NCBI RefSeq assembly: GCF_947503045.1
Contig: NZ_CANNCF010000001.1
Span: 806,001 to 870,000, forward strand
Direction of reading: 5' to 3'
Origin: an uncultured Tateyamaria sp.
GTDB lineage: Bacteria > Pseudomonadota > Alphaproteobacteria > Rhodobacterales > Rhodobacteraceae
Length of the DNA stretch: 64,000 nucleotides
Below, piece after piece: positions 6,664-30,029 of this stretch. Position 1 is the stretch's first letter. Each line of letters begins with the position of its first letter. The translations under genes and the position numbers were made by a program. The notes beneath the pieces were generated by a model. That model was not told the DNA's origin and ran no database searches. It saw nothing but the letters and a program-made list of their open reading frames with translations.

Positions 6664-7626
6664 TTATTCCACCATATGACAAGCCACGCGCGCGCCGCCG
6701 ACGGCGCGCAAGGCAGGCCGTTCTTCGCGGCAGATCGCCTGTGCCAGCGGGCAGCGCGGGTTGTAGGCGCAGCCGGGCGGTGGGTTGATCGGGTCGGGGA
6801 TCTCGCCCGTGGGCGGGGTCACTTCGCGCCCGAACCCATCAAGCTTGGGGGCCGCGGCCAGCAGCATCTGCGTATAAGGGTGCTTGGGGTCGTCAAAGAG
6901 TTCGGCAGGGGTGGCCTCTTCGACGAGACGCCCGAGATAAAGCACACCGATCCGGTCAGCCATGTGCTGGACCACGGTCAGATCGTGGCTGATGAACAGG
7001 TAGGTGAGGCCAAATTCGTCCTTGAGATCGCTCATCAGGTTCAGCACCTGCGCCTGCACGGACACGTCCAGCGCCGAGGTCGGCTCGTCACAAACGATCA
7101 GCTTCGGTTCTGACGCCAGCGCGCGGGCGATGCAGATCCGCTGGCGCTGACCACCGGAAAACTCATGCGGAAACTTGCCCGCATCGCGCGCGCTCAGCCC
7201 CACCTGTTCCAGCAGCTTTTCGGCCAGCCCGTTCGTATCGCCCCCCCGCGCCGCCACCGGTTCGGCGATGATGTCGCGCACCCGCCAGCGTGGGTTGAGC
7301 GAGGCAAACGGGTCCTGAAAGATCATCTGGATGTCGGCGCGCACTGCGTCCACCTTGGCCGCATCCTTCTCGCGTGCCAGATCGACGCCGCGGATGTCCA
7401 CCGACCCTTCGGAGGGACCAAGGAGCCCCACCAGCATCTTGCCGATGGTGGACTTGCCGGACCCGGATTCGCCCACAAGGGCATAAACCGTCTTTTCCTC
7501 GATCTCGAAACTCACATCCGACACTGCCGTCAGCAAGGCGCGCGGGCGGCGTTCAAGCACGCGGTTGAGCCAGGGTTTGGACACGTCAAAGATGCGCGTG
7601 AGGTTGCGGATGCTGACAAGGGCCAT
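6664..7626 (-). CDS. dppF: Peptide/nickel ABC transporter ATP-binding protein DppF
   Basis: A 320-residue ABC ATPase: Walker A GESGSGKST at 52-60, signature FSGGQRQRI, Walker B LIVCDEPTSALD, an H-loop in LFISHD, and the C-terminal oligopeptide-transporter domain with Cys residues (GCAYNPRCPLA). It pairs with DppD to power the DppBC channel for di- or oligopeptides. The open frame extends far upstream inside dppD; ATG 7626 is chosen because it overlaps the dppD stop (ATGA) and begins the conserved ALVSIRNL sequence. Last gene of the leftward operon. Confidence 0.92.
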   Translation of the reverse strand: MALVSIRNLTRIFDVSKPWLNRVLERRPRALLTAVSDVSFEIEEKTVYALVGESGSGKSTIGKMLVGLLGPSEGSVDIRGVDLAREKDAAKVDAVRADIQMIFQDPFASLNPRWRVRDIIAEPVAARGGDTNGLAEKLLEQVGLSARDAGKFPHEFSGGQRQRICIARALASEPKLIVCDEPTSALDVSVQAQVLNLMSDLKDEFGLTYLFISHDLTVVQHMADRIGVLYLGRLVEEATPAELFDDPKHPYTQMLLAAAPKLDGFGREVTPPTGEIPDPINPPPGCAYNPRCPLAQAICREERPALRAVGGARVACHMVE

Positions 7627-8606
7627 CAGGCGACCTCGACCCGGTCGATGGGAAAGAAACAGGCGGCCCGGCCCGCGCCATCCTCGATGCGCGGGGCGGG
7701 ATCGGCGCGGCATTGTTCGGCGGCACGCGGGCAGCGCGGGTGAAAGGCACAGCCCTGCGGCAGCGCATCCAGCCGCGGCATCGCGCCGGGGATCTGGTGC
7801 AGCCGGTCCTTGCCGCGCGAGGCCAGCGGGGTCGAACCCATCAGCCCGTCCGTATAGGGGTGCAGCGGCGCGGTGAGTACATCCCGCACCGGTCCCAACT
7901 CGGCCAGTTTGCCTGCATACATCACCGCCACGCGGTCGCAGGCCTCGGCAATCACGCCCATATCGTGGGTGATCAGCATAACGGCGGTGCCCCGTTCGCG
8001 ACACAGCCGTTTCAGCAGCGCGATGATCTGTGCCTGCACGCTCACATCAAGGGCCGTGGTCGGCTCATCCGCAATGATCAGGGACGGCTCGGCGCAGAGC
8101 GCCAGCGCAATCACCACCCGCTGGCGCATGCCGCCCGAGAATTCATGCGGATAGCTGTCGACCCGCTCGGCGGCGCCCGGAATGCCAACCTCGTCCAGCG
8201 CCGCAACGGCCCGTTTGCGCGCCTCGGATTGCGAGATATCGAGATGGGCCAGCATGGTTTCGGTCAGCTGATCGCCAATCCTGAGCAGCGGATTGAGCGA
8301 GGTCAGCGGGTCCTGAAACACCATCCCGATTTCCTTGCCGCGCAGACGGCGCATGGTGTCGCCCGCAAGGTGGTCGATGCGGGTGCCGTTCAGGTGAATC
8401 TCGCCCGATGCGATATGGGCGGGCGGGTTCAGCAGCCCGATGACCGCATTTCCAGCCATGGACTTACCGGCCCCGGATTCGCCCACAACGCCAAGGATTT
8501 CACCGGCCGCAATGTCGTAAGAGACGTTGTCCACGGGGCGCAGCGTGCCGTGCCGGGTGGGGATGTCGACGGTGAGGTTGCGGATGGAGAGAATAGGGGC
8601 TGTCAC
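7626..8606 (-). CDS. dppD: Peptide/nickel ABC transporter ATP-binding protein DppD
   Basis: A 326-residue ABC ATPase with Walker A GESGAGKSM (about 42-50), signature FSGGMRQRV, Walker B LIIADEPTTALD, H-loop ITHD and a C-terminal Cys-containing oligopeptide domain (GCAFHPRCPRA). The proposed start is the GTG at 8606 (VTAPILSIRN), where family homology begins; an ATG at 8660 would add 18 residues that do not resemble the family and has no clear ribosome-binding site. It partners with DppF. Confidence 0.9.
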   Translation of the reverse strand: MTAPILSIRNLTVDIPTRHGTLRPVDNVSYDIAAGEILGVVGESGAGKSMAGNAVIGLLNPPAHIASGEIHLNGTRIDHLAGDTMRRLRGKEIGMVFQDPLTSLNPLLRIGDQLTETMLAHLDISQSEARKRAVAALDEVGIPGAAERVDSYPHEFSGGMRQRVVIALALCAEPSLIIADEPTTALDVSVQAQIIALLKRLCRERGTAVMLITHDMGVIAEACDRVAVMYAGKLAELGPVRDVLTAPLHPYTDGLMGSTPLASRGKDRLHQIPGAMPRLDALPQGCAFHPRCPRAAEQCRADPAPRIEDGAGRAACFFPIDRVEVA

Positions 8607-8732
8607 GGCAATCCACTCTGTTGCGAAGTCTTTTATGAGAACTTCGACAGAGGATGGCAAGCAACATGACAGGCAGACCGCCCAAGTGTGGACGGAGTGC
8701 GCGCGGCCAAAGCTGGCAGGCAGTTGGCCCGG

Positions 8733-23400: not shown

Positions 23401-24574
23401 GTACTTCGGCCCGGTCAAGCCCGGCGAGGGTGATCGCCGCGACCAGCGCGTCGCTGTCGCTGGCATCAAAGCTGACGGTCAGATCGGCCAGATCAACGCG
23501 CGTCTCGCCCCCGCCCGCAGGCAGCAGCACGGGGTCGCCATCGGGGTCGGAAATCTGCCCCTCGATGTCCAGCAGCGTTGGCCAACCATCGCTGTTGAGT
23601 GCGGCCTGACCCGACAGCCGCAGCGCGCGGGTGTCGAGAGCGAATTGATCAAGGCTGAGCGCGCCGGAGGCGGCCTGATTGCCTTGCGCACTCAGCGACA
23701 CGTCGGGGCCGAAAAACTCGGCATATTGGGGCAGGAACAGGGCCGTGACATCGCCATTCAGATCAATGTCAAACACCTTCGGGCCTTCCGCCTCGCTTTG
23801 CAGGGCCAGCGTGCCGGTCAGGCGGGGCGCGCCATCGGTGCGCAGATCGAGGGTTGCGGCAAAGTCCGACAAGAGACCGTCGCCCGCCACTTTCAGATCG
23901 ACGCTGGGCCGTCCGGGCAGGTTCATGAGGCCGGAAATCAACCCATCCGCAGCCTCGGACAGATCAAGGTTGAGGCGTAATGCACGGGTTTCATTGGCAT
24001 AGGCCGCATCAACGTTGAAGCTGGCGCGGGGCCCATCGATACGCTCGGCCACCAGCGTGGCGTCGCCCGCACCATTCGCAAGCGTGGCTGTGCCACTGAG
24101 GGACAGCTCCGCCGCTTCGCCCAGCACCGGCGCGCCAAGCGCGACGCTGTCGATGGCAAGCTGGCCCAGCCGAATCGAGGCGGGCAGGTCGGGCAAGGCA
24201 AAGGGCTTGGCCTCGGCGTCGGGCACGTCGATGCCCGGTTCGGCCACAGGCAGACGGGGCAGGTCGATGCGGGCGGCGCGCAACTCTTCGACCTCGATGG
24301 CACCACGCAGCAGGGCCCGGCGGCTCCATGTCAGGGCGACATCGTCGATGGTCAGCCAGATGCCTTCGCGATCCGCAATGGTGATCTGGTCAATGGTGGC
24401 CGTGCTCGACAGTGCCCCGGCAAAGCCGATGATGCGCACGGTGCGCCCGTCACCGCCAAGCGCCCCTTCGAGCAGCCCTGCAATAAAGCCGCGGTCATCC
24501 TCGTCCGCGTCCTGTGCCGCAAGGGCGAGAGGCCACAAAAGGCAGGTCATCAAGAGAAGGGCAAAACGCATCAA
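20444..24574 (-). CDS. tamB: TamB-type translocation and assembly module inner-membrane component
   Basis: A 1376-residue protein with an N-terminal signal/anchor (MMRFALLLMTCLLWPLALAA), a very long beta-rich repetitive periplasmic region, and a C-terminal DUF490/TamB domain (LRITGTTADTISTGQIDLIRGRLEILTKRFELDDGRIEIQG, then DPTVTFESSPEAPQDQVLAQIFFGRD and an amphipathic end). It bridges the periplasm with TamA for outer-membrane protein or lipid traffic. Residues 607-966 consist of six gap-free 60-residue repeats, each with a GW/GF turn, a (D/T/S)GP(Y/L) turn and an LP-x-L end. It overlaps the tamA stop by 4 bp. Confidence 0.9.
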   Translation of the reverse strand: MMRFALLLMTCLLWPLALAAQDADEDDRGFIAGLLEGALGGDGRTVRIIGFAGALSSTATIDQITIADREGIWLTIDDVALTWSRRALLRGAIEVEELRAARIDLPRLPVAEPGIDVPDAEAKPFALPDLPASIRLGQLAIDSVALGAPVLGEAAELSLSGTATLANGAGDATLVAERIDGPRASFNVDAAYANETRALRLNLDLSEAADGLISGLMNLPGRPSVDLKVAGDGLLSDFAATLDLRTDGAPRLTGTLALQSEAEGPKVFDIDLNGDVTALFLPQYAEFFGPDVSLSAQGNQAASGALSLDQFALDTRALRLSGQAALNSDGWPTLLDIEGQISDPDGDPVLLPAGGGETRVDLADLTVSFDASDSDALVAAITLAGLDRAEVQARSVSLGIDGTLSGDVNAIGAFAARVDLNASGLGFADPALAQAIGAVVRGGLDVAYGDEAPLRLSNLSLTGGAWDITGNVVTQSLSEDFATTLDVTLDTPDLSAFAALAGLSLDGAGRIEAAGSAALGGFFNIEVVGITENLALGIPQADALLEGVTNVDLIARRDETGTYLDALTLNNAALSADVSAELKTGASTAKYAFRLDDAARVVDTLDGPLSVDGTARQTGEVWDVTAALAGPLDATANVDARLAGADIDIDLRAALPDLQPLVAQLSGGAVIEASARQRDGAWDFDTTIEGPLDSAATASGRFAQGALSANYTAFLPSLDPLVPGIPDALTLTGDVQQVPDGWEFATNLTGPYAARVTATGQFLSGILSADYTANLPDVSALAPGITGSAALEGNVQQVSEGWQFATDLSGPYSSTGRVTGTYTAARLATAFTLAVPNLAPLAPGVNGPLAVDGTLAQIDNGWAVDTDVQGPYASTATISGTFGEVGTTARYAVRLPNVGALVPRLSGAAAVTGTAKQVARGFDINASLDGPAGTIAQVQGLVATDGRLELDATGQAQLGLLNPFIAPRTIAGLANFDLTIDGPAALSSLRGRISTQGTRLAAPKLPLSLSDLSGAVELTGGQATLDLTGQVTEGGTIALNGPITLGGGFPAQLQIGLSNVVLTDNVVYTSVVNGGVSLNGALTGGARIAGNIEVGETTVQVPSSTVSTLGSIPDITHIGATRPVMRTRARAGLIKETSASSGGGLAYPLDITVNAPSRVFVRGRGIDAELGGTLRITGTTADTISTGQIDLIRGRLEILTKRFELDDGRIEIQGRFEVFLRLIAVTSTSSGTASIVVEGRASDPTVTFESSPEAPQDQVLAQIFFGRDISQLSAFQALQLASAVARLAGGGGESLISQLRGSFGLDDLDVTTDDEGNAAVRAGKYISENVYTDVTVGGTQGPEVSLNIDLTPNVTVRGSVAADSSTGVGIFIEKDY
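21677..22756 (-). repeat. Six tandem 60-codon (180-bp) repeats within tamB
   Basis: Residues 607-966 divide into six units of exactly 60 residues without gaps, aligned on a G/D start, Q/R at about 11, W or F at 16, GP at 24-25, G or A at 34, and P at 50 in the first five units; the sixth is diverged at its end. The DNA is not identical between units, so this is an old amplification. Confidence 0.75.
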
Positions 24575-26358
24575 AAGGCCTGTCCAATCCCGATATAGAT
24601 TTCGACTCCGGATGGATCGCCCGGGCCTGATCCGGGCACCGCCAGATCAAAGCGGATTGGCCCGATGGGCGTGTTGTAGCGGATGCCAGCCCCGATCCCG
24701 GTATGCCATTCGCCCGAGCCGTCAAATAAGGATTCAGCACCGATATAGCCGGCATCGTAAAAGCCGACGACCGACAGGTTTTCGCCGGTCTTGACCCGCA
24801 CCTCGCCCGAGAGGCCCAGGTAAGAGCGCCCGCCGATGGTTACGCCGGGGCTGAGGGTGACGCCAAGAGACTGGTATTCTTGCCCGCGCACCGAATCCGA
24901 CCCCCCCGAAAAGAACAGGAAATCAGCCGGGGCAATGGCGATATCCGGCCCCGCAAGCGAGCCGAGCACGCCGCGAAAGGCCAACGTGACCCGACTGCCC
25001 AACTGGCGATAGGTGCGCAGATCAAGCGTGGTGACGAGGCCATTGTCGGTGCCGTCGATGTTGAGGAACGGCGTCAGCCCGATCTGGGCGTAATAGCCCG
25101 AAGTTGCATTCAGCGGATCGTCGCGCCTGTCAAAGGTGGCCGAGAGCGGAATGGTGAAAATTGTATAGTCCCGCTCACCCAGATCGTCGCGCGTGAGCGA
25201 GCGGCGCAGGCCGACGCCATAGCTGTATTCACGAGTCTCGCTGGCAAAATAGGTCCCGCCCAGTTCCAGCCGAACGGTGCGCGAAAACAGATTGGGATCG
25301 TCGCGTTGTTCGATCTCGGCCAGCAGAAACGCCTCGAGATCGGTGCGGATGGTGGCGGGACGTGACAAGAGGCCCGTCAGGCGGAAATCGACGCCGCCGG
25401 TATCGCCGCCAACGCCAGTGACCTCACCGTCGATTTGCAGTCGCTCGGCTCCGCCAAAGATGTTGCGATGCAGCCAAAGCGCGCTGACGCTGAACCCGTC
25501 CAGTGTGCTGTATTCCGCGCCAACACTGTAACGACGCGGCAGTTGGTCCGAGATCGTGGCGGTGACATCCAGCGTGCCGTCCGGGTTGGGTTCGGCGGCC
25601 TCGGTCAGATTGGCGGCGGCAAAGGTGCCGGTGCGGCGCATGCGGTTTTCAACCTGCTCGATGTCGTCGGGGTCGAACTGCTTGCCCTCAGGCCAGCCCA
25701 TGATCTCGCGGATGCGTTTTTCGCGCACCGCGGTCTCGCCCTTGATCAGCAACTTGCCAAAGCGCAGGCGCGGACCGGGGTCGAGCGTGACGGCGGCGTT
25801 TATCTGTTTTTCGGGGTGGCGGGCGGTGATCTTTTGGTCCGCCACGGCGGCCTTGGCGTGGCCTGCCTGACGCCAGCCGTCGATCTGGGCGGTGGTGCCC
25901 GCGCGCAAGGTTGAGACTCGCGCCGTGGCGCCAGGCGTCAGCCCGTCGACCGGCTCGGATGTGGGGGCCTGAGGCGTGATGGTGACCGAGCCGAAAGTGA
26001 ACACCTCGCCCGGGACAACTCTGATCACCACGGTCGAAATGGCGGGCGGGGCAGCAATCGGGGCGATGGAGGCGGCCTCGCGCCCGTCCACCAGAATGTT
26101 TATGCTGGGCGCGAAATACCCAAGTTCGTAAAGCACTCCAATCAGGCGGGCATAGTCGGCCTGTGCCGCACTGAGGACATCAATGGCGCGCGGTGCGTCC
26201 TCTTCTCCGTCGAGCAGGGCGGCGGTCAGGGACCCGGTGCGCAGATCATTCGCAACACTGTCTGGCGCCTCAACAGTCACATCCAGCGCCCATGCGGCAC
26301 TTGCAGCACAGGTCGCGGCGATGACTGTGGCCAGCACAGGCCGGATTTTCTGGATCAT
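24571..26358 (-). CDS. tamA: TamA-type outer-membrane protein (BamA/Omp85 family)
   Basis: About 595 residues. Signal peptide MIQKIRPVLATVIAATCAASAAWA, then three POTRA-like modules (AQADYARLIGVLYELGYFAPSINILVDG; FTFGSVTITPQAP...; LRFGKLLIKGETAVREKRIREIMGWPEG) and a 16-strand barrel ending in an aromatic residue (YIGIGQAF). The barrel includes the Omp85 surface-antigen motif SVRGQEYQSLG (equivalent of RGF/Y). An in-frame ATG at 26376 would add six residues. It forms an operon with tamB. Confidence 0.9.
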   Translation of the reverse strand: MIQKIRPVLATVIAATCAASAAWALDVTVEAPDSVANDLRTGSLTAALLDGEEDAPRAIDVLSAAQADYARLIGVLYELGYFAPSINILVDGREAASIAPIAAPPAISTVVIRVVPGEVFTFGSVTITPQAPTSEPVDGLTPGATARVSTLRAGTTAQIDGWRQAGHAKAAVADQKITARHPEKQINAAVTLDPGPRLRFGKLLIKGETAVREKRIREIMGWPEGKQFDPDDIEQVENRMRRTGTFAAANLTEAAEPNPDGTLDVTATISDQLPRRYSVGAEYSTLDGFSVSALWLHRNIFGGAERLQIDGEVTGVGGDTGGVDFRLTGLLSRPATIRTDLEAFLLAEIEQRDDPNLFSRTVRLELGGTYFASETREYSYGVGLRRSLTRDDLGERDYTIFTIPLSATFDRRDDPLNATSGYYAQIGLTPFLNIDGTDNGLVTTLDLRTYRQLGSRVTLAFRGVLGSLAGPDIAIAPADFLFFSGGSDSVRGQEYQSLGVTLSPGVTIGGRSYLGLSGEVRVKTGENLSVVGFYDAGYIGAESLFDGSGEWHTGIGAGIRYNTPIGPIRFDLAVPGSGPGDPSGVEIYIGIGQAF

Positions 26359-26477
26359 CAAAACACCCCGCCGCATTGTCGCTGCGGCCTTGCAACATCA
26401 TTGCCAAAACTTGGCTCAAGGTGCCAGCGGTTAAAGGGGAAATGTCGAAAAGTCGCGCAAGCTTGAAGGCAGGTCGC

Positions 26478-29400
26478 TCAGGTCTTGACGTAGCCTGCCA
26501 CCACCTGCAGCAGACGGAAGGCCGTGGCGGCGTCATTTTCGACCACGGCCATGAAGTCTTCTTCGCTGATACGCAGGCAGGACAGGGCGGATTTGGCCCG
26601 CATATCAAGGGCGCGGGGCTCGCGCCGGATCAGGCCCAACTCGCCCACCAGTGCGCCCGCGCCGACGGTTGCGATCAGCTGATCTTCGCCGCCCGGACGG
26701 GGCAGCAGCAGGTCCGCCTCACCGTCGATGATCATATAGGCCCCGTCGGTCGGGTCGTCGCGTTTGCGGAACACGTATTCGTGCGGATTGGCCGTGTACC
26801 AGCGCGCGCCAAACGCAAGCAGACGCAACTGCTTGCGCTTGAGCCCGGAAAACAGCGGCGTGCGGCTAAGCGCGTCGAGCTTGCGGGCCAGATCCGCGCC
26901 AACCTCGCTGTCGGCTTCGGCGCGCGTCCCTTCGGCCCCGACAAGGCGGCCCTGCTGGATTTCAAAGTGCATATCGAACACGTCTTCGTCCTCGAATCCT
27001 TCGTTGAGAAAGATGAGGATCGAGTCAGGCAAAAGTGCGCGCAGGTTGGTGATCAGCGCCTCGCGGGTGTCGGCATCATAGCTGGCCATGACCCGGTCCA
27101 GGATCAGGACATCGGGGCGCTTGATGGTGGCCCGGCTGATCGACAGTGGTTCGGCAAAGATGGCAGGCAGGTTGGCCCCGCCAAGGGCGATCGGCACGTC
27201 AAAGACCAGTTCCAGCACCTGTGGGCTGACCCCTTCATCCGCCAGCACCTGCACCACGATCCGGCGCAATTCCTCGCCCCGCGTGCCGGCCCCTTCGGCC
27301 ACTTTGCCGAACAGCGCGTTTTCCAGAACCGTCATGCCGTAGACGTATTTGCCCTCTTCGATGGGCACAAAAAGGTCGTCCATCTGTTCGCGCAGCGAGT
27401 CGGCATGCTGGGCGCGCATCTCCAGCACACGGGCCTTGACGTCTTCGGGAAAGGATGGGCCGACCTGTTCGGCGGTGACGCTGGACGGCACGCTTAACAG
27501 CAGGGCGAGTTCGCTGTCGGTGATCTGCGATCCCGGTGGTTTGCGGTTCACCAGATCAAGGGCGGCGTCATAGACAGCTACTTCCAGGCCCACTTTGCGG
27601 AACAGCGGATGATCGGTGCCATTCGCGCCAAAAATCTGGCGCAGCATTTCGATTATGTTGCGGGCCAACTGTTCGAGATTGCTGGCCAGTTCCAGCGCGT
27701 GCAGCAGGCGCAGGAACTCCAGCTTGGCCTCGATGATCTCGGGGGTGATCGCCTCGCGCGGAGTGGCAAAGAGCAGGTTTTCCGAGATCGGCAAGGCCGG
27801 GTTGTATGCCTGCGGATCAAAACGGTGCACATAGCGCGTGAGACCCGCCGCCTCGACCGCCGCAGCCACCTTGGGACGAAGGGCGATCAGGGCTTCGGTC
27901 AGGGCCGCGTGTTTGTCCGCGTCAAAAGTCTGATCCATCGTGCGCCGGGTCAGCACCTCGCCACTGCCGGACCCATCGATCAGCGTGTACCACCAGGCGC
28001 GCAACTGGGCGCGATCCTCGACCCCGGCCAGCGTCGGATCAAGCCACTTTGCCTTGAGCATGTCGGGCGAGTTCCCGGCCCGTTTGGCTTCGCGGGCAAA
28101 GTCGGTTTCGGTGCCTTCGCCAACCGGAGAGACCCGCATCGGCATCATAACGTTCTGCCCATAACTGCCCTGAAACAGGATGGGGCGCGAGTTGGCATGG
28201 CCAATCCGCTTGGCGATTGTGGCCTGATGCAGGCTGTTGATGCTCTTGCCCGACAGGGTGACCGAACCGCTGGTGGGCAGGGTTTCGCGGGTCAGCACTT
28301 CTGCCAGCGCGCGGCGGTCTTCGTCATTTTCGGCGCTGATCCCCACCACGGCCCCGGCGGGCAGCGTGACCGAGATATCTTCGAGCACCGGGTTGCCGTC
28401 GCCGTCACGCACCGTCACCTGATCCAGCACAATGTCACCTGTCAGACGCGGCGCTTCGGGGGCGGGGCCGTAAAACAGGTCCTCGTCCACCATGCCTTCG
28501 GGGGCAAAGCGTTCGGTAATCGTCTCCCAGCGCAGGGACATGTCGGCGGACTGGTTGTAATAGGTCAGCAGCTCCTTCCACGGGCTCGACAGGTCCTTGT
28601 AGGCCGCGAGGGCTGCGACCAGCGCGCCGATGGTCACCTGCCCCTGAATGACCAGGTAGCCACCGATGGAAAAGAAAAAGAATGGCGTGAGTTGCGTGAT
28701 GAAGTTGTTGAGAAACTTCATGAAGAATTTCTTCTGGTAGATCTGGAAGCGGATGTCGAAGAGCCGCCCCAGCCGGTCGCCGATCATCGCCATCCGGTAG
28801 CGCCAGCCGCCATTGACCCGCAGGGTCGAGGCCCCCACCGCGCCTTCGCCAATCTCGGCCGCCAGCGCGCGCACCTGAATGACGCGTTTCTTGTTCAGCA
28901 GGTTGATCTGGCGTTGCAGTTTCGGGATCAGCCAGGCCTGCAGCGGGATCAGCGCACAGGCGGCCAGACCAAAGGCGACCGACTGAAGGAACAGAAAGCC
29001 GAGGATCGTCAGCATCTGGCCCGCCTGCAGCACAGGCTGGGCCACCGCATCGCCCATCAGACCACCCATCGGCTCGCTCTCGGCGGTGACCATGCTGACC
29101 AGCTCGCCTTGGCTCGTGCGTTCGAAATAGGGCTGGGGAAAGCGCAGGATGCGAGCGATCAACGTATAGCGAAATCGGCGCAGCAGACGTTCGGCCAACA
29201 CGCCCTTCATGGTGTTGATCCGCATCTTCATCAGGCCGTGGGCCATCACCGCCAGCAAGAATCCGCCACAAAGCAGCATCAAGTAGTTGATTTGCGAGAA
29301 CTCCATCCCGAAGGCGGTGATCGATGACGACCCCGACCCAATGGCGTCGTTGATGATCTGCTTGGGCAGCTCCAGCGTCAGGTAAAGCAGGGGAAACAGG

Positions 29401-29516
29401 CTCAGCGTCACCACCAGCAGGATCAACTGATCGCGTTTGGAATACTTCCAGATAAAGGCAAAAATGGAGGATTCGATGGCTCTGGCCCTACTCAATTTGG
29501 ACGCCGTGCGCCTCAA
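26478..29516 (-). CDS. ABC-type exporter-like fusion: membrane domain, degenerate nucleotide-binding domain, C-terminal cNMP-binding domain
   Basis: A 1012-residue protein. Residues ~20-330 form an ABC exporter membrane domain with about six helices and ABC coupling features (RFRYTLIARILRFPQPYFERTSQGELVS). Residues ~360-860 align with an ABC ATPase, but Walker A is GISAENDEDRRAL (391-403, no GKS/T), the signature region is FAEPLSISRATIKR (787-800), Walker B ends LILDR instead of LILDE (804-808) and the H-loop is FLNEGF (836-841). Residues ~886-1005 are a CRP-like cyclic-nucleotide domain (FSGLKRKQLRLLAFGARWYTANPHEYVFRK; GALVGELGLIRREPRALDMRA). A ~270-residue insert carries two additional ENLLF/ENALF segments. 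Probably does not hydrolyse ATP (inference). It lies upstream of tamAB on the same strand, 119 bp apart. Confidence 0.8.
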   Translation of the reverse strand: MRRTASKLSRARAIESSIFAFIWKYSKRDQLILLVVTLSLFPLLYLTLELPKQIINDAIGSGSSSITAFGMEFSQINYLMLLCGGFLLAVMAHGLMKMRINTMKGVLAERLLRRFRYTLIARILRFPQPYFERTSQGELVSMVTAESEPMGGLMGDAVAQPVLQAGQMLTILGFLFLQSVAFGLAACALIPLQAWLIPKLQRQINLLNKKRVIQVRALAAEIGEGAVGASTLRVNGGWRYRMAMIGDRLGRLFDIRFQIYQKKFFMKFLNNFITQLTPFFFFSIGGYLVIQGQVTIGALVAALAAYKDLSSPWKELLTYYNQSADMSLRWETITERFAPEGMVDEDLFYGPAPEAPRLTGDIVLDQVTVRDGDGNPVLEDISVTLPAGAVVGISAENDEDRRALAEVLTRETLPTSGSVTLSGKSINSLHQATIAKRIGHANSRPILFQGSYGQNVMMPMRVSPVGEGTETDFAREAKRAGNSPDMLKAKWLDPTLAGVEDRAQLRAWWYTLIDGSGSGEVLTRRTMDQTFDADKHAALTEALIALRPKVAAAVEAAGLTRYVHRFDPQAYNPALPISENLLFATPREAITPEIIEAKLEFLRLLHALELASNLEQLARNIIEMLRQIFGANGTDHPLFRKVGLEVAVYDAALDLVNRKPPGSQITDSELALLLSVPSSVTAEQVGPSFPEDVKARVLEMRAQHADSLREQMDDLFVPIEEGKYVYGMTVLENALFGKVAEGAGTRGEELRRIVVQVLADEGVSPQVLELVFDVPIALGGANLPAIFAEPLSISRATIKRPDVLILDRVMASYDADTREALITNLRALLPDSILIFLNEGFEDEDVFDMHFEIQQGRLVGAEGTRAEADSEVGADLARKLDALSRTPLFSGLKRKQLRLLAFGARWYTANPHEYVFRKRDDPTDGAYMIIDGEADLLLPRPGGEDQLIATVGAGALVGELGLIRREPRALDMRAKSALSCLRISEEDFMAVVENDAATAFRLLQVVAGYVKT

Positions 29517-29648
29517 TGCAGGTTAAACGTGCTGAGGTTGGTAAATCAATGCTTTGTGGGGCGATGTTGACTTGCTGCGTGAGGTGGATTGCTCCGAACG
29601 GATTGCCATCCTAGGATGCGGATCAGAGTAACACGTGAAGGACCGTCC

Positions 29649-30029
29649 TTGAGTGATCCAGTGCTTTTCGGGTTTGGGCTGCTGTTTTTGCTGCAGGCCA
29701 AACACCTGTTTGCGGATTTCTATCTGCAGACACCTCGCATGTTGCGGGACCGTGGGCGCTATGTGCATGTGGGGCGCGCACAACATGCGGGCGTGCATGG
29801 TGTCGGATCGCTGATCGCAATGATGGTGATGGGGGTGCCGTTTGGGCTGACCCTCGTGGTGGCACTGATCGAATGGGCGGTGCATTTCCACATCGATTGG
29901 GCCAAGGGGCGCTGGTCGGATCACACCGGACACGGGCCCGATCAGGCCGGATACTGGCGCGCCTTCGGGGTCGATCAGGCCCTGCACCAATGGACTTATC
30001 TCATAATGGTCTGGGCCGTCCTGCCCTGA
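29649..30029 (+). CDS. DUF3307 family small membrane protein
   Basis: About 126 residues starting from TTG 29649, which has AAGGA seven bases upstream; the open frame extends further but without homology. Three hydrophobic segments (LFGFGLLFLLQAKHLFADFYLQ; VGSLIAMMVMGVPFGLTLVVALIEWAVHFHIDW; DQALHQWTYLIMVWAVLP) with the DUF3307 signatures K-HLFADFYLQ, HAGVHG, EWAVHFHIDW and DQALHQ. An inner-membrane protein of unknown role; the conserved His and Asp could bind a metal. Confidence 0.82.
   Translation: MSDPVLFGFGLLFLLQAKHLFADFYLQTPRMLRDRGRYVHVGRAQHAGVHGVGSLIAMMVMGVPFGLTLVVALIEWAVHFHIDWAKGRWSDHTGHGPDQAGYWRAFGVDQALHQWTYLIMVWAVLP

Follow-up and report, generated by a model that had tools for sequence, protein, structure and literature searches.

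How would a protein built like an ATP-binding cassette (ABC) exporter work once the motifs of its ATPase are gone? The question is raised by a gene on the minus strand (26478..29516) of a 64,000-nucleotide stretch of DNA from an uncultured Tateyamaria sp. (contig NZ_CANNCF010000001.1, positions 806,001 to 870,000), the whole of which we call the window. A preliminary description had seen in its product a selected pseudo-ATPase, perhaps a nucleotide-gated membrane regulator rather than an exporter. Judged by its aligned motifs, the protein is very probably a pseudo-ATPase. The best explanation as a whole, to which we would give an even chance, is a family of pseudo-ATPases with the ABC-exporter fold whose membrane domain would act without ATP hydrolysis, probably under the control of a cyclic nucleotide.

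ATPase motifs in the protein and its family

The open reading frame (ORF) proposed for this gene is real and lies on the minus strand. It starts with a TTG at 29516, ends with the stop at 26478 and encodes 1012 amino acids; no clear Shine-Dalgarno sequence was seen upstream of the TTG and the exact start position is uncertain. The nearest relatives are the Tateyamaria loci L036-L052, which are 70-89% identical. The membrane half and the CRP-like C-terminal domain had been described as intact, and Pfam found both above cut-off: ABC_membrane (PF00664), the exporter membrane domain, at residues 54-303 (E 7e-16, 59.2 bits, cut-off 28) and cNMP_binding (PF00027), the profile of a cyclic-nucleotide-binding domain (CNBD), at residues 911-995 (E 2e-14, 53.8 bits, cut-off 27.5). 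ABC_tran, the profile for the nucleotide-binding domain (NBD), matched residues 378-455 only and stayed below threshold (20.3 against 25 bits). Two PDB alignments pair the protein with PCAT1 over residues 71-458 and then again from 767; since the match stops and restarts in this way, an insert splits the NBD. The parts of the gene are as follows, with their evidence in brackets (dN/dS, ratio of non-synonymous to synonymous substitution rates).

26478..29516, stop codon included (-): whole gene, 1012-aa ABC-exporter-like / pseudo-NBD / CNBD protein (ORF call, Pfam, relatives)
28491..29471 (-): transmembrane domain, residues ~16-342, the most conserved part (Pfam 54-303, alignment A3, dN/dS 0.060)
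28137..28433 (-): putative pseudo-NBD, first half, residues 362-460 (PDB matches to residue 458, NBD model)
28305..28343 (-): Walker A remnant GISAENDEDRRAL, residues 392-404, without Lys or Ser/Thr (motif alignment, Lys in 0/91 orthologues)
28137..28193 (-): Q-loop region and first ENLLFG-like element, residues 442-460, with the invariant Asn455 (alignment A1, motif alignment, profile comparison)
27282..28136 (-): insert, residues ~461-745, mostly helical (gap between PDB-matched pieces, secondary structure of the model, dN/dS 0.186)
27753..27818 (-): second ENLLFG-like element, residues 567-588, with the invariant Asn580 (A1, profile comparison)
27294..27359 (-): third ENLLFG-like element, residues 720-741, with the invariant Asn733 and Gly737 (A1, profile comparison)
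26931..27281 (-): putative pseudo-NBD, second half, residues 746-862, with lost signature, Walker B LILDR, D-loop ASYD and lost H-loop (PDB alignments, motif alignment, NBD model)
26502..26879 (-): CNBD, residues ~880-1005 (PF00027 911-995, dN/dS 0.076)
26595..26645 (-): phosphate-binding cassette GELGLIRREPRALDMRA, residues 958-974 (conservation of Glu/Asp and Arg)

Motif alignment bore out all the motif positions of the preliminary description. Arg401 and Arg402 occupy the places of the Walker A Lys and Thr, the Q-loop Gln is replaced by Ser443 and the H-loop His by Asn838. The LSGGQ position reads LPAIF and Walker B reads Asp807-Arg808, without the catalytic Glu; the D-loop ASYD is retained.

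The same motifs were scored in 156 sequences, by sequence alignment of diverged domains and limited to members with a locus retrieved. These were 91 close orthologues, 14 paralogues and 3 distant members from Rhodobacteraceae, together with 48 relatives from other alphaproteobacterial families. The orthologue, paralogue and distant groups were set by phmmer score alone, by which L024 and L129 (~55% identical) count as paralogues. Nine of the 121 first-round rows (six duplicates, two pieces of L089 and one fragment), five identical sequences and six of the 55 second-round loci (five repeats and one with the membrane domain only) were left out. Intact relatives were searched for in overlapping samples of 120 family, 385 class and 398 phylum genomes.

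The Walker A Lys was found in none of the 91 orthologues, 14 paralogues and 3 distant rows, and in 23 of the 48 other-family relatives. Lys and Ser/Thr occur together in 3/48 other-family rows and in 0/108 Rhodobacteraceae rows. The distant other-family sequences L157, L176 and L177 combine Lys and Ser with the Walker B Asp and Glu, yet none of them has LSGGQ, the Q-loop Gln or the H-loop His. The Walker B pair of Asp and Glu is present in 7/91 orthologues and 5/48 other-family rows, and an LSGGQ-type signature in 0/91 and 3/48 (LSAGQ in all three). In no sequence among the 156 did the seven scored ATPase features occur all together. When the presence of the Lys was mapped on the membrane-domain tree, eight to nine changes were required, four of them forced by well-supported branches, so that loss of the Lys looks repeated; this was a quick tree with long branches and an unsure root, and its change counts cannot separate gain from loss.

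By these alignments, the losses of ATPase motifs are a family trait and not peculiar to the window gene: they are common to the close orthologues and recurrent across the family. Orthologues with intact Walker A and B, which would have spoken against the preliminary description, did not appear among the close orthologues, where the Walker A Lys is absent throughout. Its wording that all catalytic residues are gone holds for the window protein; as a family rule it fails, since seven orthologues keep the Walker B pair.

We compared the predicted structure with canonical NBDs. The AlphaFold2 model of residues 345-864 (74-row alignment) had a mean predicted local distance difference test score (pLDDT) of 89.4 and a predicted template-modelling score (pTM) of 0.83. 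Its Foldseek matches include single ABC NBDs (TAP1 1jj7 and ComA 3vx4_A, both with a template-modelling score of 0.73 on target length), which points to a single ABC NBD fold although the Pfam match is below cut-off. No second catalytic NBD was seen in the predicted structure of residues 345-864. The full-length model (63-row alignment, mean pLDDT 75) has unreliable membrane loops, with pLDDT <50 at residues 115-159 and 311-330; the Foldseek matches listed for it are ABC exporters.

The gene is under selection. Across 16 Tateyamaria sequences the median dN/dS was lowest in the membrane domain (0.060) and the CNBD (0.076), higher in the two NBD halves (first 0.100, second 0.154) and highest in the insert (0.186); purifying selection acts on all five regions. 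Two ordinary Tateyamaria exporters served as controls (15 sequences for each): membrane domain and NBD had 0.127 and 0.062 in one and 0.055 and 0.074 in the other, and the NBD of the window family is less constrained than in either. Stronger conservation of the membrane domain than of the NBD was considered as proof and kept as a weak point only, since the first control supported it and the second did not (0.055 against 0.074). The membrane-domain alignment A3 (42 sequences) has 25 invariant columns.

The gene and a second copy were found in 16/16 Tateyamaria genomes, and all are open except the second copy of G869, which has an in-frame stop. Together with the shared losses and the purifying selection, this upholds the description of a selected pseudo-ATPase. 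The gene is not a pseudogene. In the window's own genome the second copy (G000:C1:8797-11790, L116:8671-11871) is 54% identical and, like the window gene, has no Walker A Lys. It is followed by clusters with counterparts after the copy of Ruegeria THAF33, where they are annotated as CAAX-type endopeptidase and accD; a further cluster, by ORF calling not shared with THAF33, corresponds to neighbours of the folylpolyglutamate synthase gene. One locus from a metagenome-assembled genome, L089, carries the frame in two pieces.

The insert and the cyclic-nucleotide-binding domain

The insert comprises ~285 residues within a single NBD fold. The three segments resembling ENLLFG that had been noticed in this region were confirmed, centred on Asn455, Asn580 and Asn733. 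These three residues are invariant in the 25-row family alignment A1, whose invariant columns over residues 358-862 are Gly417, Asn455, Arg547, Asn580, Asn733, Gly737 and Asp848, four of the seven falling within the elements. When a profile of each element from the 48 other-family sequences was compared along the whole protein, its two best of 827 offsets were the other two elements (z 5.6-8.7). With the Rhodobacteraceae rows only the 580/733 pair was recovered (z 6.5 and 6.1), and the 455 element was not. In the model the second and third elements are each predicted to sit in a strand-helix-strand-helix unit. On the strength of the profile comparison the three elements are related to one another, and the suggestion that parts of the NBD were duplicated stands for the ENLLFG element.

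The CNBD retains its phosphate-binding cassette, in which the Glu and the Arg have established roles. The pattern G-E-L...P-R is present as GELGLIRREPRALD in the window protein and often reads GEIAILCDVPRTAT outside Rhodobacteraceae. Glu or Asp is found in 154/155 rows and Arg in 154/155 rows, these rows including some re-fetched copies of the same gene.

Among the 48 loci from outside Rhodobacteraceae the CNBD is fused in 7 and a separate ORF in 39, overlapping or up to 253 nt downstream on the same strand; the fetched stretch of the remaining 2 ends before the CNBD could be judged. Altogether 46/48 have it in the same ORF or within this distance. It is a new observation that members beyond the window's clade mostly encode the CNBD in a gene of its own immediately downstream. 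Since the two parts are fused in some loci and adjacent in the rest, the ABC part and the CNBD probably work together as a unit. With 16 class III cyclase domains in the window's genome, the cyclic-nucleotide ligand can probably be made.

Many top-ranked loci show the CNBD in frame directly after a single stop, and read-through of the stop codon was considered. We dropped it as a ranking artefact, because the genome search reads through stops and so ranks in-frame cases first; over the class-search rows the in-frame share is about one third, by a rough reading of the table that was not computed.

Distribution, stand-alone membrane domains and neighbouring genes

A member was found in 129/385 genomes of the class sample and in 28/398 of the phylum sample (both at E <= 1e-80), 27 of the latter belonging to the same class and one (G607) having a stand-alone membrane domain only. 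The family sample gave a match in 24/120 genomes (E <= 1e-60). Among the plasmids and chromids of PLSDB, 330 records matched (E <= 1e-50), mainly from Rhizobium (144), Sinorhizobium (80) and roseobacters. The family is separate and almost purely alphaproteobacterial.

The A3 profile detected NBD-less ORFs of ~290-425 aa in at least 20 of 289 class genomes with 14 family codes, a count taken from the table minus two contig-edge pieces of full-length genes and a lower bound, as no more than 7 candidates per genome were scored; among the 20, one ORF is cut by the contig end and another is interrupted by a stop in frame. All 20 genomes also hold a full-length member (in G296 as two contig-edge pieces), as against any member in 95/289. 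A same-strand NBD was the next ORF in 0 of the 20 loci with a called ORF, 4 of the 24 stand-alone loci having no called ORF and being left out of this count. Ordinary exporters sit on very long branches, and the tree fits both loss of the NBD and its primary absence in the stand-alone domains. These genes are the strongest hint that the membrane domain may act without ATP, maybe paired with the full-length protein.

Five stand-alone domains (L201:7543-8781, L202:6868-8091, L203:7001-8197, L204:7531-8727 and L205:8059-9294) have ~400 aa and a His-containing N-terminal extension. The surroundings of L203 are copper-resistance genes by Pfam (multicopper oxidase, CopB, metal P-type ATPase), and BLAST clusters place similar genes in L201, L204 and L205; L202 has only an oxidase-cluster ORF ~7 kb off. 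A second, more diverged stand-alone set of ~330-400 aa comprises L257, L258, L261, L264, L265, L267-L272 and L275. Pirin genes adjoin the stand-alone domain in L261 and L269 and lie ~3 kb off in L258.

Gene neighbourhoods were counted in 80 genome-contig loci with flanks of up to 5 kb. In the window the adjoining genes are:

29589..30029 (+): DUF3307-type small protein, divergent neighbour (homologue in fetched loci; name from the TM1040 annotation)
24571..26376 (-): putative tamA, downstream, named in the preliminary description (linked in Tateyamaria only)

A homologue of the DUF3307-type gene lies divergently upstream in 80/80 loci. The placement next to tamA and tamB is correct for the window, where they follow downstream on the same strand, and has no general meaning: they follow the gene in 15/17 Tateyamaria loci and in 0/63 others. 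A terminator-like hairpin (26388-26370, a pattern match only) lies between the gene and tamA; the same scan showed no promoter-like site, which carries no information either way. With the link local to the genus and this hairpin in between, tamAB was rejected as a functional partner.

Within the fetched 13-19 kb, members of two clusters with glycosyltransferase representatives were found by simple ORF calling in 13/20 loci outside Rhodobacteraceae. Pfam was run on the L188 and L190 representatives only and gave GT4, GT28 C-terminal, histidine phosphatase and Opp-type ABC parts. Clusters recurring beside the full-length gene in L188, L189, L190, L192 and L200 include glycosyltransferases, a histidine phosphatase (L188) and Opp-type importer parts (L188, L190). 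On a Sulfitobacter plasmid, glycosyltransferases and a polysaccharide deacetylase adjoin the copy.

A same-strand NBD-type ORF stands directly beside the full-length gene in 1/20 loci (L193, from the same genome as L170); in L172 one stands directly beside the full-length member on the opposite strand. The next gene in Azospirillum lipoferum is annotated as an ABC ATP-binding protein and heads an importer set that continues with a dedicated binding protein and two permeases. The window's nearest NBD-type ORFs (6667-8732, minus strand) are two overlapping frames that match ordinary ABC NBDs, ~18 kb off.

Explanations and relation to known systems

In the explanation that we prefer, two chains would form the usual exporter dimer and the pseudo-NBD would no longer close on ATP. 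Instead, the cytoplasmic loops of the membrane domain may dock on the pseudo-NBD by way of the three ENLLFG elements. We propose this because the ENLLFG region of normal exporters contacts the coupling helices of the membrane domain, and because most of the few invariant NBD residues fall in these elements. The CNBD would sense cyclic AMP or cyclic GMP, and this signal, not ATP, would set the conformation of the membrane domain, which could pass or co-transport a solute down its gradient or serve as a receptor. The conserved CNBD cassette and the NBD-less relatives agree with the earlier idea that the protein is no exporter but a membrane regulator gated by a nucleotide. We put cyclic-nucleotide-controlled, ATP-independent action itself at slightly under an even chance. 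More tentatively, the family could be a naturally occurring branch of the ABC-exporter fold that works without ATP: the full-length protein would be a channel gated by a cyclic nucleotide or a transporter coupled to ions, the stand-alone membrane domains would be its partners, and the NBD would be a signal-transmitting adaptor with a triplicated docking element.

Several observations weigh against the preferred explanation. As 23/48 other-family members retain the Walker A Lys, some relatives may bind ATP. Docking is not readable from the full-length model, because its membrane loops are poorly predicted. Behind the cassette Arg the sequence is variable (PRALD in the window protein, PRTAT in many other-family rows), and stronger constraint on the membrane domain than on the NBD is not diagnostic, one control being reversed and the other nearly equal in the same direction.

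It is rather doubtful that the protein carries no substrate and acts as a cyclic-nucleotide receptor or scaffold like SUR, regulating a partner such as the glycosyltransferase machinery or a stand-alone relative. The glycosyltransferase-cluster members near the gene (13/20 loci), the full-length member in every genome with a stand-alone domain (20/20 against 95/289) and the constant DUF3307-type neighbour (80/80) all speak for such a role. By eye, however, no glycan genes were seen beside the window gene, and the invariant polar residues along the membrane helices suggest a pathway more than a simple anchor, which is not proof. An alternative is that catalysis comes from a partner, the protein being either half of a heterodimeric exporter or a membrane component that depends on a separate ATPase. 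Heterodimeric exporters such as TM287/288, TmrAB and BmrCD keep one working site; they share a degenerate NBD in the exporter fold with the window protein, for which the analysis identified no partner that works. Exporters of this heterodimeric kind are well known (compare PMC12038006 and PMC7756269), and an ABC ATPase gene lies close by in L193 and, by annotation, in A. lipoferum. Such a partnership is nevertheless unlikely. Because Walker A, the signature, the Q-loop, the Walker B Glu and the H-loop are all lost, both composite sites would be damaged; the sole other close family member in the genome, at 54% identity, lacks the Walker A Lys too, the other five genome matches are 20-26% identical over parts only, and the nearest NBD-type ORFs in the window are those ~18 kb away.

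The predicted retention of the NBD fold and the Walker A Lys in 23/48 relatives outside Rhodobacteraceae could be used to argue for an exporter that still works, by a non-canonical ATPase or an ATP-binding switch. We hold this to be quite unlikely, as none of the 91 orthologues in the window's clade has Lys, Ser/Thr or an LSGGQ-type signature and NBD-less relatives exist. Decay of the gene might be read from the lost catalytic motifs, the split frame of L089 and the in-frame stop of the second copy in G869, but dN/dS of 0.06-0.19 in five regions and two copies in 16/16 genus genomes make it very unlikely.

By both sequence and fold the best PDB matches are Type IV exporters (PCAT1, MsbA, Sav1866, LmrA), with which the window protein shares the membrane domain and the NBD fold. 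It differs from them in having lost all ATPase motifs, in its ~285-residue insert with the repeated ENLLFG and in its C-terminal CNBD. The family is a variant of the ABC-exporter fold and not a new fold. Since the defining ATPase motifs were tested and are absent, we use the label ABC-exporter-fold pseudo-ATPase with CNBD, not ABC exporter. Several annotated records name these genes only "ABC transporter transmembrane domain-containing protein".

CFTR and SUR use the ABC-exporter fold as a channel or a channel regulator, and both still use ATP. Like them, the window protein combines this fold with a degenerate ATPase function, and its ENLLFG element is one that we take to correspond to the Phe508 region of CFTR; unlike them, it has lost the motifs of both sites and carries a CNBD. 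The sperm exchanger SLC9C1 and CNBD channels likewise have a membrane transport unit followed by a CNBD, with an unrelated membrane fold. A precedent is an engineered LmrA without its NBD (LmrA-MD), which, according to the part of PMC2704374 consulted, still ran ion-coupled, ATP-free symport in liposomes. It is an exporter membrane domain acting without an NBD, the make-up of the stand-alone relatives; it is man-made and they are natural, known from genes alone and likened to it through a shared Pfam domain. Proton coupling of MsbA has also been studied (PMC4979069, seen in part).

No published description of this family was found in open-access full text, which was covered in part and with incomplete listings. 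An excerpt of PMC10945364 calls SMb20813 the msbA homologue of S. meliloti, which may belong to this family, and the excerpt of PMC6180224 gives no sign that SMb20811 is important for growth or symbiosis; for both, the identity of tag and locus is not confirmed.

As far as we know, the evidence that exporter membrane domains are of use without ATP has so far come from engineered truncations such as LmrA-MD. If the preferred explanation is true, the family would be a wild form of this hand-made protein and a bacterial counterpart of CFTR or SLC9C1. A natural family with a dead NBD, together with its NBD-less relatives, would make the ATP-free function of the membrane domain directly testable, and would offer a bacterial system for how exporter folds turn into channels or receptors. 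Marine roseobacters, rhizobia and azospirilla would then possess a membrane protein that responds to cyclic nucleotides.

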